Shown here: piece by piece, positions 20,729-61,250 of the stretch | How the letters are laid out: each line of letters starts with the position of its first letter | Numbering within the stretch: the first letter of the stretch is position 1 | From: Streptomyces sp. ISL-10 | Lineage (GTDB): Bacteria; Actinomycetota; Actinomycetes; Streptomycetales; Streptomycetaceae | Length of the DNA: 64,000 bases | Direction: 5' to 3' | Assembly: GCF_018614575.1 (NCBI RefSeq) | Contig: NZ_JAGGOJ010000013.1 | Location: 124,001-188,000 of the forward strand | Notes under the pieces: model-generated | Databases searched by the model: none | What the model saw: only the letters and a program-made list of their open reading frames with translations | What the model was told of the DNA's origin: nothing | Translations under genes and position numbers: made by a program

Positions 20729-20935
20729 TCAAAGCCGGAGAGTGACTCCTTCAACGAAGGTTTGCCAGGCATCGGTCGCCACGGCGACCACCGGCCCCGT
20801 CGGCCGCTTCGAGTCGCGTATCAAGATGCCAGTGCCAGCGTGCGCACACTCCACGCACTCACCGCCTGACCCATTGCTGCGGGAGGACTTGAACCACTGA
20901 GGGTCCCTGGAAGAGATCGGATTTGGGTTGGTCAT
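20729..20935 (-). CDS. DUF397 protein
   Basis: The 68-residue protein is a textbook DUF397: QWFKSSRSNGSGGECVECA, then ILIRDSKRPTGPVVAV and WQTFVEGV. These small proteins are encoded next to XRE/DUF5753 regulators in actinobacteria and are thought to act with them. The ATG overlaps the stop of the upstream regulator gene as ATGA. Confidence 0.93.
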   Translation of the reverse strand: MTNPNPISSRDPQWFKSSRSNGSGGECVECAHAGTGILIRDSKRPTGPVVAVATDAWQTFVEGVTLRL

Positions 20936-21780
20936 CGTACGTAGTCCTTCAGCAACGACTTGATCAGTTGGACCGAGCGATGAGGGCTCGCGGCCGCGGC
21001 CCTCAGATTGTCGAAGGCTCGCGTGTACTCACGCACATCGTCCGCCCCCTCCAAGTAGATGGCGTCGGTGATGCCATCCCGGTACACGATGTCCGGGTCC
21101 TCGAGGTCAGGGAAGCCCATCAGTGTGAACGAGCCCGTCGCAGGGTAAGGACCGGCATCGAACGGCAGCACCTGCAGCGTGACAGCGGGAAGTTCAACCG
21201 CGTCCAGGATGCGTTCGAGCTGCTCACGCATCAATGCCCGATCACCGATAACGTTTCGCAGGGTGCTCTCATGTACGACGAACCAGGCGTCTGGAGCGTC
21301 CTCTCGGGTGAGCATTGCCTGACGTTCCATCCGTACATGGACTGCCTGCGCAACGTCCTCAGCGGTCATCTGGTTGGTGGCGCGGTGCAGGGCGGTGGCG
21401 TAAGCAGGCGTCTGCATCAGCCCTGGTAGGAACTCGCACTGGTACTGCTGGAAGGTTGAGATGTCCTGCTCCAGCCCGATGTAGATCGAGAACCAAGACG
21501 GAACCCCACTGCCGTGTGCCTGCCACCAACCTCGTGTCTTAGCCTGCCGTGCCAGCGACTTGAGGAACTCCCGGAGCTCGTCGTCTGTCCCGTAGAAGCG
21601 GCACAGCGCCTCAACATCTGAGGGTTGTACGCGTCCGGTGCCAGTCTCCATGCGATTGACCTTGGACCCACTCCAGTCCAGTGCCTCTCCCACCTGCGCG
21701 CAGGTGAAGCCGTTTGTCTCGCGCAGCCTTTTCAGCTCGATCGACAAACGTCGACGTCGCGCCGTTGGTGAGCCGGCCAT
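20932..21780 (-). CDS. XRE-family regulator with DUF5753 domain (DUF397 partner)
   Basis: The 282-residue protein has an N-terminal helix-turn-helix (LSIELKRLRETNGFTCAQVG, EALDWSGSKVNRMETGTGRV) and a DUF5753 domain (FSIYIGLEQDISTFQQYQ, LPGLMQTPAYATAL, VIGDRALMREQLERI). GAGGG precedes the ATG. It is translationally coupled to DUF397 and divergent from the HATPase gene, an arrangement repeated across Streptomyces genomes and associated with developmental control. Confidence 0.92.
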   Translation of the reverse strand: MAGSPTARRRRLSIELKRLRETNGFTCAQVGEALDWSGSKVNRMETGTGRVQPSDVEALCRFYGTDDELREFLKSLARQAKTRGWWQAHGSGVPSWFSIYIGLEQDISTFQQYQCEFLPGLMQTPAYATALHRATNQMTAEDVAQAVHVRMERQAMLTREDAPDAWFVVHESTLRNVIGDRALMREQLERILDAVELPAVTLQVLPFDAGPYPATGSFTLMGFPDLEDPDIVYRDGITDAIYLEGADDVREYTRAFDNLRAAAASPHRSVQLIKSLLKDYVR

Positions 21781-21864
21781 TCCAACCCTCTTTTCCGTAG
21801 CGGGTGTTCAGTCTCCGCACCAGTGAGCGTGCTTGCCAATCACTCGATGGTGGGAATCCCTTGG

Positions 21865-21897
21865 TGCATATTGCATGAAGGGATGCGCAACGCAATG
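21865..21897. promoter_or_regulatory. Candidate operator in XRE/HATPase divergent region
   Basis: TGCATATTGCA (21865-21875) is a short symmetric element, followed by ATGCGCAACGCAATGC, which repeats parts of it. The region is the shared upstream of the XRE gene and the HATPase gene. Evidence is the symmetry only. Confidence 0.3.
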
Positions 21898-21956
21898 CTG
21901 GTGAGTCGTAGCGTCCGCCATGAGGTGAGTGGGTTGGCATGAATGAGGACGGGTGC

Positions 21957-22580
21957 ATGATTCGGAAGTCGTGGGAGCTTCCCTTCCTGGCTGAGCCGAA
22001 GGAAGTGGCCGTACTTCGACGCATCCTGAGGCTCCACTTGAAGGCGTGGGGCTTGCCACGGCAGACGGAAGTAGCTCAGCTCTGTGTCAGTGAAATCGTC
22101 GCCAACGTCATCCGGCACGTGGGCGCGGGGACGCCGACAGCCCTCCGTCTCTCCATGAGCGGCACGTACCTGCGCGTTGAAGTGCGCGATCCCGACTCCC
22201 GGGCGCTGCCGACATTGGTCGCGGTTGGCCCTGACTCTGAGTCGGGACGTGGCATGGCGCTGGTGGACGCGATGGCTGACCGCTGGGGTGTTCTGCTCGG
22301 TTCTGATCACAAGGTGACCTGGTGCGAGATCGCGACCGATCTGTCCACGCCGAACGGACACGCCGGAGGCGTCCGCGTCACACGGGCGGAGGCGATGATC
22401 TCCATTTACGGTGCGGTGGCATCCCCTCGCGCGGTGAACGCGAGTCGGCTGAGCGTGGCCGTGGCCAAGGACACCGCGATCGATGTGATCGTGGATTTGC
22501 TCCACTGGATGGTTGTCCACGGCTTCGACGCTGATGATGTGCTGGACATGGCTCAGGCGCGATTTGAGTCCGGCTTGTGA
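21957..22580 (+). CDS. HATPase_c ATP-binding protein (anti-sigma-like)
   Basis: The 207-residue protein has an N-terminal GHKL ATPase fold of the RsbW/SpoIIAB type: VAQLCVSEIVANVIRHVG (N-box), LRVEVRDPDSRALP (G1), and SESGRGMALVDAMADRWG (G2). The C-terminal ~80 residues are additional. Streptomyces orphan HATPase proteins of this group are often next to XRE/DUF397 pairs. I prefer ATG 21957 because GAGGA is well placed before it; an in-frame ATG at 21939 is possible. Confidence 0.88.
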   Translation: MIRKSWELPFLAEPKEVAVLRRILRLHLKAWGLPRQTEVAQLCVSEIVANVIRHVGAGTPTALRLSMSGTYLRVEVRDPDSRALPTLVAVGPDSESGRGMALVDAMADRWGVLLGSDHKVTWCEIATDLSTPNGHAGGVRVTRAEAMISIYGAVASPRAVNASRLSVAVAKDTAIDVIVDLLHWMVVHGFDADDVLDMAQARFESGL

Positions 22581-22640
22581 TGCGCACGGGTGACTTGACC
22601 GGGGTGAGGTGAGACCAGTGTGCGGTGCGCTTACCTGATC

Positions 22641-22646
22641 TAGATT
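22641..22646 (+). promoter_or_regulatory. Candidate leaderless -10 element before nuclease gene
   Basis: TAGATT ends six bases before the ATG at 22653 and no ribosome binding site lies between, so the mRNA probably starts at or next to the start codon. A -35 is not obvious. Confidence 0.45.
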
Positions 22647-22652
22647 CTCCGC

Positions 22653-23756
22653 ATGGGGATTCGAGACATGCTCATCGAAGTCGCGAGCACATACGACCGC
22701 ACCGCCGGTTCGACGCGCGACGTGAAGGGACAGCAGGTACTGCGTGCGGTCGCAAGCCGTACCGATCTCGCCCTTCCGCCAGGCTTCAGCGCCAAAGGGC
22801 ATGGGGGACAGACGACTCCGGCGGCAACCCCCTGGATCGGCATCTTCGATGAGCGTCGCGAGAGCGATCCGAAGAAGGGTCTGTACCTCGCATATATCTT
22901 CAGCGCCGATCTGAAGAACGTGACTCTAACCTTGCAGCAAGGGATTACCTGGCTGGAAGAGCGATTGGGCAGGGGCATCGCGCGCGAGGCGCATCTTCGC
23001 CGTCACGCGGCCCGGCTCCGCCGGGCCGTGAAGCGGCAGGGGTGGGTAGACGAGCCGGAGCTTCGCGACAAGGCGGCGCGACCCCGGGCCTACCAGGCAG
23101 CCAGTGTCATCGCCAAGTCCTACGACACGGCCGTCCTGCCGAGTGATGTCACGTTGATGGAGGACCTCCTGGTCGCCATCGAGTCACTACGGCGAGCGGA
23201 AGAGGCGGACCGTGTCTGGTGGATGAGCGACGACGCAGACGCCCTTGAGATGTCTTACGAGCCTGGCGGCCACGCCCACCCGGTCGCCGACCCGCTCGCC
23301 GGCTTCCAGCCGAAGAGCAGCAGCGAGTATGTGGCGCAGATCACGGCCCGGCAGCAGGTCAAGCAACGAAGCCACGAGAAGCTGATCGAGGACTTTGGCA
23401 TCTATGTCGCGGAGTGCGGATACGCCCCCATCACGCGAGGGCAGCACCCCAAGGACTTGGTGCTGCGGCGTCCCGGCGCCGAGGCGGAGATTGGCGAAGA
23501 GTGGTTGATTGAAGCGAAGGTCGTTCGTAACGGAAACCCGACCACGGCGGTCCGTGAGGCAGTCGGACAGCTCTACGAGTACCGCCACTTCCTTTACCAG
23601 CAGCAGTGTGAGCCCTTCCTCATAGGGCTGTTCTCCGAGGAGATCGGCGTCTACGCCCCATACCTGGAGGAGCGAGGAATCGCCTCGATCTGGCAGCACG
23701 GGGCCGGATGGGGCGGCTCATCCATGGCACAGGAGTGGGGCATGACCTTGGCGTAG
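22653..23756 (+). CDS. MrcB-like N-terminal domain fused to a PD-(D/E)XK nuclease
   Basis: The N-terminal ~190 residues resemble the MrcB N-terminal domain (DUF3578): ATPWIGIFDERRESDPKKGL, YLAYIFSADLKNVTLTLQQG and WLEERLG. DUF3578 is found in modification-dependent restriction proteins. From residue 240 the protein shows a PD-(D/E)XK-type fold: HEKLIEDFG, KDLVLRRP (D268), EEWLIEAKVV (E287-x-K289) and GQLYEYR (Q306-x3-Y310, as in RecB-like nucleases). It has no helicase or methylase partner. Base composition appears less GC-rich than the flanks. A single-gene, modification-dependent restriction enzyme is the most economical reading; activity is inferred. Confidence 0.8.
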   Translation: MGIRDMLIEVASTYDRTAGSTRDVKGQQVLRAVASRTDLALPPGFSAKGHGGQTTPAATPWIGIFDERRESDPKKGLYLAYIFSADLKNVTLTLQQGITWLEERLGRGIAREAHLRRHAARLRRAVKRQGWVDEPELRDKAARPRAYQAASVIAKSYDTAVLPSDVTLMEDLLVAIESLRRAEEADRVWWMSDDADALEMSYEPGGHAHPVADPLAGFQPKSSSEYVAQITARQQVKQRSHEKLIEDFGIYVAECGYAPITRGQHPKDLVLRRPGAEAEIGEEWLIEAKVVRNGNPTTAVREAVGQLYEYRHFLYQQQCEPFLIGLFSEEIGVYAPYLEERGIASIWQHGAGWGGSSMAQEWGMTLA

Positions 23757-23843
23757 CCCCAACCTCAGAGTGGTGGTAAATGTGACGCTACGCCAAGGCA
23801 GTCGCGGAGGTCCGGAGGTTCCAGGGAACTCACTGATGCGCAT

Positions 23844-24860
23844 CTATGAGGTTGCCGAGGCCCCGTGACACTCCCTGTACACCCGCCCCGACCCGCACCA
23901 GCACGCCGCCCCCCGCGCCGGCGGCCACGCCGCCGCCCGGCCCCGGGCCGCCAGGGTTGTCGCGTACTGGGGGAGCAGGTTCGCGTTCGACGGGGAGGAC
24001 GCTTCCGAGGCTGCGAAGGCCTCGTAGGACGGGACCGTCGCCGTCACGATGCCCAGGTTCTCCGTGCCCGTCGCCGCCAGGTCGCGCAGCGACGACTCGA
24101 TGGACGCCAGGTGCTCCTTGTGGCCCGGGTACTCGGCGGCCAGCTCGGGGTAGGCCTCCAGGAGTTCGGCGAGCTCCCGTTCCGGCCAGTGCAGGACTGC
24201 CACCGGGAACGGGCGCGACAGGGCCGAGCGGAACGAGCCCAGTTCCGAGCGGAGGCGGGTGATCTCGGCCCTGAGTTCCGCCGGGTTGTCCGAGCCCAGC
24301 GCCCACAGGCGGTTCGGGTTGTGGAGCTCGTCGAGGCTCACGTCCGGCGTGTGGGCCGCGTGGACCCGGTCGGCGAGGGCGTCGCGGTCGTCATGGGAAA
24401 GGCCCAGCAGGCGGCGTACGCGGTGGCGGCCCGTGAGGAGGGACCGGGTCGCGTACGGGACGTCGTCGTCCTCCGGCAGCAGCAGGTCCAGCGCCTCGGT
24501 GAAGCACTCGAGGGAAGCCTCCAGCTCGTCGTGGGCCTCCAGCGTCTCGGCGATGATCTCCCACGGCGCGGCCTGTGCCGGGGCCGCGATGCGGATGCCC
24601 GCGATCAGGGCGCGTGCCTCCGCCTCGTGGCCGTACTCCCACAGGTTGGCCGCCTGCAGCGCCTTGATCAGCTGCGGGTGGTCCGGCTCGGCTGCCAGCA
24701 GGCGGTCGTAGAGCCCGGACGCGCGGCCGCGGTCGCCGGCCAGTTCCAGATGGGCCGCTGCCTGCAGCAGCAGCTGTTCGTCGTCCTCCGGATACTGCGC
24801 TGCGGTGCGCAGCAGGCGCTCGGCTTCGGCGGTGTGGTCGGCAGGCGTGTCGGGGCGCAT
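23844..24860 (-). CDS. TPR-like protein with C-terminal SEC-C motif
   Basis: The 338-residue protein has TPR-like helices in the first ~150 residues (EAERLLRTAAQYPEDDEQLL, GLYDRLLAAEPDHPQLIKAL), a middle domain, and a final SEC-C zinc motif CWCGSGRVYRECHG. SEC-C motifs bind zinc and often mediate contacts with SecB or ribosomes. It is a cytoplasmic protein of unknown role and is divergent from the sortase gene. Confidence 0.87.
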   Translation of the reverse strand: MRPDTPADHTAEAERLLRTAAQYPEDDEQLLLQAAAHLELAGDRGRASGLYDRLLAAEPDHPQLIKALQAANLWEYGHEAEARALIAGIRIAAPAQAAPWEIIAETLEAHDELEASLECFTEALDLLLPEDDDVPYATRSLLTGRHRVRRLLGLSHDDRDALADRVHAAHTPDVSLDELHNPNRLWALGSDNPAELRAEITRLRSELGSFRSALSRPFPVAVLHWPERELAELLEAYPELAAEYPGHKEHLASIESSLRDLAATGTENLGIVTATVPSYEAFAASEASSPSNANLLPQYATTLAARGRAAAWPPARGAACWCGSGRVYRECHGASATS

Positions 24861-24960
24861 GCACCACACCGTACTGCGGCAGGGGGTACGTGCGGGCAGG
24901 CCGTATCCCGGCAACCGTACGGAGTCGCTTCCGGTACTGGTGAGTTGAGGCGCCGGGTCC

Positions 24961-40542: not shown

Positions 40543-40551
40543 GTGTGTCTG

Positions 40552-40625
40552 TGCGCCGCCAGGGACTCGAACCCCGGACCCGCTGATTAAGAGTCAGCTG
40601 CTCTAACCAACTGAGCTAGCGGCGC
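40552..40625 (-). tRNA. tRNA-Lys (CTT), copy 1
   Basis: The 74-nt sequence folds into a cloverleaf with acceptor GCGCCGC/GCGGCGC, T-loop GGTTCGAGTCC and anticodon loop CTCTTAA (anticodon CTT). The 3' CCA is not encoded. Upstream TAAAGT may be the -10. Confidence 0.97.
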
Positions 40626-45124: not shown

Positions 45125-45133
45125 CCCTGCGCG

Positions 45134-45207
45134 TGCGCCGCCAGGGACTCGAACCCCGGACCCGCTGATTAAGAGTCAGCTGCTCTAACCAACTGAGCTA
45201 GCGGCGC
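45134..45207 (-). tRNA. tRNA-Lys (CTT), copy 2
   Basis: The 74-nt gene is identical to copies 1 and 3. TACTAT upstream on the minus strand is a good -10. CCA is not encoded. Confidence 0.97.
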
Positions 45208-61169: not shown

Positions 61170-61176
61170 CCGTCTG

Positions 61177-61250
61177 TGCGCCGCCAGGGACTCGAACCCC
61201 GGACCCGCTGATTAAGAGTCAGCTGCTCTAACCAACTGAGCTAGCGGCGC
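61177..61250 (-). tRNA. tRNA-Lys (CTT), copy 3
   Basis: The 74-nt gene is identical to copies 1 and 2. The flanks next to the 5' end (GGCGCCTGCTGAC) and 3' end (GTCTGTGCGCC region) also match copy 1. TAAGGT upstream may be the -10. Confidence 0.97.

Follow-up and report, generated by a model that had tools for sequence, protein, structure and literature searches.

An open reading frame at 22653..23756 (+) of the window, as we call the whole 64,000-nucleotide stretch of Streptomyces sp. ISL-10 DNA analysed here, encodes a 367 amino acid protein, named NUC, in which an MrcB_N domain is followed by a PD-(D/E)XK nuclease domain. We conclude that NUC is probably a type IV-like endonuclease that consists of one chain, depends on DNA modification and works independently of nucleotides, on the basis of its predicted two-domain fold, its conserved residues, the purifying selection acting on it and its location in a defence slot. 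Because a methyl-reader is joined to a nuclease at the spot where relatives carry defence genes, NUC is probably a one-protein restriction enzyme, and it likely reads a modified cytosine.

The NUC gene

The frame starts with ATG, and its length alone does not prove that it is a gene, as stop-free runs reach up to 395 codons (mean 186) when the surrounding 3.5 kb is shuffled 200 times. The MrcB_N match, the full-length homologues and a dN/dS of 0.08–0.17 against seven relatives establish that it is real, as the first-pass annotation had taken it to be, and that it is under purifying selection. A TANNNT sequence lies at a fixed distance (within one base) before the start in 19 of 23 homologues, whereas 1000 rounds of shuffling gave 1.0 on average and never more than 5. 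In the window the -10-like hexamer picked out by this homologue comparison is TAGATT (22641..22646, +), which ends six bases 5′ of the ATG, and its position suggests that the transcript is leaderless. In database searches of the protein at E values up to 1, MrcB_N is the sole Pfam family reported, with no nuclease model, and there are no matches in PADLOC or NCBIfam; a sequence search of solved structures returned nothing beyond a synthetic helix (E 0.041).

The McrB-N-like reader domain

The N-terminal half had been proposed to be an MrcB N-terminal-like domain, and this is borne out by both profile and fold. PF12102 (MrcB_N) matches residues 42–180 with an E value of 5.5e-25 (88.5 bits; cut-off 25), and an AlphaFold2 model built from 23 sequences (pLDDT 80.4, pTM 0.54) contains two domains separated by a linker of low confidence. 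The first of these, residues 1–188 (22653..23216, +), superimposes on E. coli McrB-N (3ssc_B) with a Z score of 10.8 and an rmsd of 3.7 Å over 146 aligned residues, and McrB-N entries fill Foldseek ranks 1–20, the best having an E value of 8.3e-4 and being the one match at 0.001 or better. The linker, residues 189–237 (23217..23363, +), is mostly of low confidence, with pLDDT below 50 at 192–213 and 222–237.

We mapped E. coli McrB-N onto the NUC family with MAFFT, together with a weak collinear hhalign alignment that ends before Y117. The modified-base pocket columns W49, Y64 and L68 of E. coli correspond to W61, Y78 and I82 of NUC (residues 61–82; 22833..22898, +), and Y117 corresponds, by MAFFT only, to Y147 (23091-23093, +); E. 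coli McrB-N by itself gives a weak hhalign match to the NUC family, with a probability of 3.3%. W61, Y78 and Y147 are kept in all 50 NUC sequences compared, and column 82 is isoleucine in 48 and leucine in two. W49 and Y117 presumably line the E. coli pocket. In PMC3874153, Y64 and L68 are described as contacting the methyl group, the pocket as accepting C, 5mC, 5hmC and 4mC and refusing glucosylated bases, and the substitutions Y41A and Y41Q as lowering DNA binding. The equivalent of Y41 in the NUC family is Q, K, N, R or S, and hence unconserved. DUF3578 appears in the accessible literature as the McrB reader or as a marker of McrB proteins, and in PMC11090510 it is called ADAM.

The nuclease domain

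Residues 238–367 (23364..23753, +) form the predicted PD-(D/E)XK nuclease domain, with H241, E242, D268, E287xK289 and Q306xxxY310; in the model, helices at 240–254 and 296–315 enclose strands at 258–260, 268–272 and 283–289, and a further strand follows at 322–327. The QxxxY motif is a mark of RecB-like nucleases, and by model and motif together NUC has the RecB-like arrangement D - (D/E)xK - QxxxY on an alpha-beta-beta-beta-alpha-beta core. The closest structural matches are XisH (2okf_A, Z 9.4, rmsd 2.9 over 111 residues) and EndoMS/NucS (5gkj_B, Z 8.0, rmsd 3.5 over 100 residues), followed by FokI (1fok_A, Z 7.2, rmsd 4.0 over 118 residues), McrC (6hz4_N, Z 6.6, rmsd 3.7 over 117 residues) and Hjc (1gef_A, Z 6.3, rmsd 3.7 over 97 residues), these last three lying below Z 8, where a match may reflect a common arrangement only. 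D268, E287, K289, Q306 and Y310, which the first-pass annotation had placed correctly within a nuclease fold, do not vary in any of 23 aligned sequences, the window included, or in any of the 50 of a partly overlapping set (the window and 49 named loci); H241, E242 and R301 are likewise invariant in the NUC alignments.

Pfam models of nuclease type match the family weakly. Among the 23 members, XisH is matched by three, PDDEXK_9 by two, and PDDEXK_1, DUF4420 and RmuC by one each, the best E value in members other than NUC being 0.028. The PD-(D/E)XK assignment accordingly rests on fold and motif. The Mrr family has the same class of fold; no Mrr or Mrr_cat model gave a match in NUC at E values up to 1, and none is among the families listed for the 23 members. 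The comparison of profiles and structures that had been proposed as a check of the first-pass annotation gives MrcB_N by HMM and PD-(D/E)XK structural matches at Z 9.4–6.3.

Distribution and exchange of modules

Among 295 genomes of the genus, 30 have a match to NUC at an E value of 0.001, of which 23 (its own included) are full-length and seven extend over MrcB_N only; full-length homologues are therefore present in 22 of the 294 other genomes. A pattern-based scan of species genomes yielded 54 loci, 50 of them in Streptomyces, and the closest named homologue is that of Streptomyces sp. ISL-36, with 91% identity. Full-length relatives also occur further afield. One in another actinobacterial family (L223) shares 43% identity over 360 columns and has an MrcB_N match with an E value of 9.8e-31, and one in Nonomuraea, in an 11.85-Mb record of a plasmid collection, shares 34% identity with 98% covered. 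At the L223 locus the homologue (115-1272, -) is followed by a gene for an Mrr_cat protein (E 1.1e-9). Six plasmid-collection records match NUC, five of them mostly over the N-terminal half, and two IMG/VR loci match over the nuclease part only; the phage records searched with NUC gave no match. A further match in its own genome (L002, E 0.115, with internal stops) was dismissed as chance.

The nuclease domain is also found without a detected MrcB_N, in two Nocardia proteins (L165 and L166), a Corallococcus protein (L167) and an IMG/VR contig (L169, at a contig end). D268, E287, K289, Q306 and Y310 are invariant across a nine-row alignment of such swaps, which leaves out L168 (an ORF of only 116 aa) and L170 (the same protein as L167). 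Part of L166 aligns with residues 7-92 of the 'McrA' chain 5zmm (E 1.2e-11); we take 5zmm to be ScoMcrA and these residues to be its head region, not its sulphur-binding domain. This 624 aa protein (L166:6567-8438) consists of the McrA 5zmm-like stretch, a domain common to L165 and L167, and the nuclease domain. None of the remaining N-termini reaches the cut-off of a Pfam family. The L165 fold model is of too low a quality (pLDDT 50, three sequences) for its fold to be named, and YTH-domain chains recur in its Foldseek results at E values of 0.4–1.4; a search of viral structures gave no match at 0.001, and a search for further relatives of L169 found none. A second Streptomyces architecture joins MrcB_N to NOV_C (PF13020), as seen in all three proteins scanned (L025, L026 and L031) of the seven with MrcB_N only. 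These resemble NUC in plan, with MrcB_N joined to another C-terminal domain, but this domain is of a different family and the similarity is confined to the N-terminal half of NUC; one of the three has a weak PDDEXK_5 match (E 0.091).

A defence slot beside a core gene

NUC was initially described as lying in an accessory segment with regulators and of lower GC content. The GC content is 62.7% over 20900-23800 compared to 71.1% for the whole window, and the regulators are present: Pfam identifies an HATPase_c_2 protein, two HTH_31/DUF5753 proteins, and DUF397 and DUF6879 proteins nearby. The segment is a recurrent defence slot, with the usual order in NUC relatives being regulator, HATPase gene, in some a SauUSI-like gene, NUC, and a SEC-C/TPR gene. 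The last of these (23844..24914, -) is a core gene, present in 119 of 150 genomes, that forms the edge of the slot. Among 50 named relatives, 31 have it no more than 5.5 kb from NUC, 29 have the anti-sigma-like HATPase_c_2 regulator (21939..22580, +) at such a distance, and 21 have a gene related to the HTH_31/DUF5753 regulator (20932..21780, -) there, all of these counts being approximate lower bounds because the gene caller, a crude one using GC at codon positions, missed NUC itself in L037 and L135; several of the named loci are also cut by contig ends. Elsewhere in the window are three tRNA-Lys(CTT) genes (40551-40625, 45133-45207 and 61176-61250, -) within 21 kb, which are possibly duplicated integration sites.

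The contents of the slot can be followed from the SEC-C/TPR gene. Of 118 genomes examined with this gene, 36 have a SauUSI-like gene on the same contig, within 9 kb in 35 of them, and four more SEC-C genomes have one on a different contig; a representative (L049) contains PLDc_2, ResIII, Helicase_C and DUF3427 domains and is assigned to mREase_IV by PADLOC. NUC and SauUSI are both missing from 73 SEC-C genomes, and in 51 of these a C5-methylase match lies no more than 30 kb from the SEC-C gene. Of the 73, 40 were read, and 16 of those 40 contain Vsr-like genes. Representatives of the recurrent gene clusters in the slot, one for each, are a C5-methylase, a Z1 protein (MzaC-like), an HATPase (MzaB-like), a DUF4420 protein (MzaD-like), NaeI and a caspase-domain protein. 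Because SauUSI-like, C5-methylase, Vsr, NaeI and Mza-like genes recur there, we regard the SEC-C/TPR slot as a defence hotspot in Streptomyces. In one genome (G224) NUC and the SEC-C gene are separated by a Vsr gene (L034:7470-7898), and one of this genome's two C5-methylase matches is about 1.8 Mb away.

The proposed absence of an McrB GTPase or a methylase holds for the ten ORFs of the window that were scanned, NUC included, which lie between 17570 and 25728 and contain neither, and no McrC partner was found among the scanned neighbours. PF10117 (McrC) is absent from the NUC genome, and from 12 of the 14 in-sample genomes that have NUC without SauUSI (its own among the 14), although the reach of this model is limited, as it matches just one of 14 control genomes and misses E. 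coli.

Coexistence with cytosine methylases

From the ancestry of the reader and its pocket, methylcytosine is the first guess for the target. The NUC genome nonetheless contains two strong C5-methylase matches, one full-length (E 5.8e-38) and one covering half of the model (E 3.2e-31), along with seven weaker pieces; the matches are not on the contig of the window but on C56, C10, C3 and C22. The PF01555 search gave one match in this genome. If the C5-methylases are active, a NUC that cut at 5mC with little selectivity would kill its own cell. A 5mC-dependent NUC would probably be limited to a particular context.

If NUC cut 5mC, the genomes carrying it would be expected to avoid PF00145, and we examined this with SauUSI as a yardstick. 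C5-methylases are present in 21 of 89 genomes with a SauUSI-like gene and 171 of 206 others (p 1.6e-22, uncorrected for relatedness), although competition for the slot next to the SEC-C gene must account for part of this exclusion. The corresponding figures are 11/23 versus 181/272 for genomes with NUC (p 0.11), and 9/14 versus 162/192 (p 0.067) for those with NUC and without SauUSI. Adding 19 NUC-only genomes, which were reached via named loci and come from another collection, represented by contigs of at least 3 kb, gives 15/33 versus 162/192 (p 4.5e-6, again uncorrected for relatedness), with smaller p values at most stricter cut-offs. We have set this depletion aside as evidence for a 5mC target because 51 of the 73 comparison genomes carry a methylase in the slot itself; with the slot-resident methylases of the comparison genomes left out, the figures are 15/33 versus 31/73 (p 0.83), in a test that is conservative in that methylases of the NUC genomes are still counted anywhere. 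At cut-offs from 1e-15 to 1e-30 the off-slot p values are 0.83, 0.83, 0.66 and 0.26, and from 1e-35 to 1e-50 they are 0.025 (a nominal difference, 3/33 versus 22/73), 0.053, 0.14 and 0.06; for the 14 in-sample genomes alone p is at least 0.085 at all eight cut-offs, with 0.085 being in the opposite direction. Most of the apparent methylase depletion in NUC-only genomes comes from the slot.

Mechanism and alternative explanations

For the steps of base flipping, chemistry, dimerisation, target choice and restriction we infer the following scheme. As the McrB-N-like domain probed DNA, it would take up a modified cytosine (5mC, 5hmC or 4mC) lying in a restricted sequence context by flipping it into the pocket of W61, Y78, I82 and Y147, and the flexible linker would then set the PD-(D/E)XK domain on nearby DNA, which would be cut with Mg2+ held by D268 and E287 and with K289 acting in catalysis. 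Cutting would probably require two copies of NUC to come together, one for each strand, and the outcome would be restriction of incoming modified phage or plasmid DNA. This reading is favoured by the McrB-N fold and pocket columns, the PD-(D/E)XK fold with its invariant D-ExK-QxxxY residues, the lack of a GTPase domain in NUC and of PF10117 in its genome, the defence slot with SauUSI-like genes so consistently close to the SEC-C gene, the Mrr_cat neighbour of the L223 homologue, the joining of the nuclease to other N-termini (one of them McrA 5zmm-like), and the patchy presence in 23 of 295 genomes. It is weakened by the high rmsd to McrB-N, the lone Foldseek match at 0.001 or better, the low hhalign probability, the replacement of a tyrosine important in E. 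coli binding, the lack of PADLOC or NCBIfam matches, the strong and weaker methylase matches in the same genome, and the loss of most of the methylase depletion off-slot.

That NUC is modification-dependent but reads something other than simple 5mC is quite possible, if short of an even chance; the mark could be confined to a narrow context, or be 5hmC, 4mC, phosphorothioate or some other base of phages. C5-methylase genes coexist with NUC in 11 of 23 genomes including its own, the Y41 position differs, and the same nuclease carries other N-termini, while W61, Y78 and I82 correspond to methylcytosine-pocket residues of E. coli McrB, whose Y64 and L68 contacts are given in PMC3874153. A NUC that is half of a pair with a SauUSI-like enzyme, cutting where the ATP-driven enzyme stalls or adding a second specificity, seems unlikely to us. 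A SauUSI-like gene lies directly upstream of NUC and divergent from it in 20 of 50 named relatives (with gaps of 0–181 bp by gene calls), which also speaks for a role in defence, and the two are adjacent in seven of the nine in-sample genomes with both. They co-occur, however, no more than by chance (9/23 versus 80/272, p 0.35), so that we view the pairs as sharing a slot, which explains their adjacency, and not as obligate partners. A tree of 50 NUC proteins requires five changes in pairing, and the window NUC belongs to a supported 19-row clade (96/95) without an adjacent SauUSI, whose solo state would be old. The suggestion in the first-pass annotation of single-gene modification-dependent defence is thus still the best reading, at the strength of the mechanism proposed above, but the system is not always a single gene, given these 20 relatives.

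A role in DNA repair or housekeeping, in the manner of NucS/EndoMS or Hjc, would be in keeping with the matches of the nuclease domain to 5gkj_B and 1gef_A; the restricted occurrence of NUC (23/295), a slot often filled by restriction genes and the McrB-N-like reader make it very improbable. It is harder still to credit that NUC is a catalytically dead remnant retained as a DNA-binding regulator, for although it sits among regulators, the catalytic set is complete in 50 of 50 sequences and dN/dS is low.

Relationship to known systems

One of the systems nearest to NUC is E. coli McrBC (EcoKMcrBC), with which it shares the N-terminal fold and base-pocket columns, and a PD-(D/E)XK cutting domain of the kind found in McrC. 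McrBC differs in having an AAA+ GTPase, which is absent from the 367 residues of NUC, both halves of which have other folds, and no translocation is therefore expected; it also differs in that no McrC partner was found for NUC, whose reader and nuclease are on one chain. Fusion of a reader to a nuclease with no motor is shared with the two-domain modification-dependent enzymes MspJI, TagI, ScoMcrA and Mrr, according to a restriction review (PMC12707154), which describes SRA, winged-helix, GmrSD and SauUSI types. The readers of those four enzymes are SRA, sulphur-binding or winged-helix domains, however, whereas that of NUC is McrB-N-like, and its nuclease is PD-ExK with QxxxY and not HNH. Relatives of SauUSI (PLDc-helicase-DUF3427) occupy the NUC slot, often head-to-head with it, and have the same predicted job, but their architecture is unrelated, with an ATP-dependent motor and a PLD nuclease; NUC has no PLDc, SF2 helicase or DUF3427 match in Pfam. 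The literature searched, to which most subscription papers did not belong, contains no motor-free MrcB_N-PD-(D/E)XK enzyme in its accessible parts.

We see an even chance that the McrB-N-like reader with a RecB-like PD-(D/E)XK nuclease represents an undescribed motor-free type IV class, with a nuclease module that is combined with other readers in actinobacteria and outside them, and that the Streptomyces slot alternates between two kinds of strategy, one that methylates cytosine (C5-methylase with Vsr, NaeI or Mza-like genes) and one that destroys methylated DNA (SauUSI-like, NUC). If NUC works as proposed, it would show that McrBC's methylcytosine reader can function in the absence of the GTP-driven motor, NUC would be a compact modification-dependent nuclease that might aid the mapping of modified bases, and it would form an extra barrier to transforming Streptomyces with E. 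coli-methylated DNA. The SEC-C/TPR slot is a place to seek more restriction genes, and a natural test of the conflict between methylases and methyl-directed nucleases.
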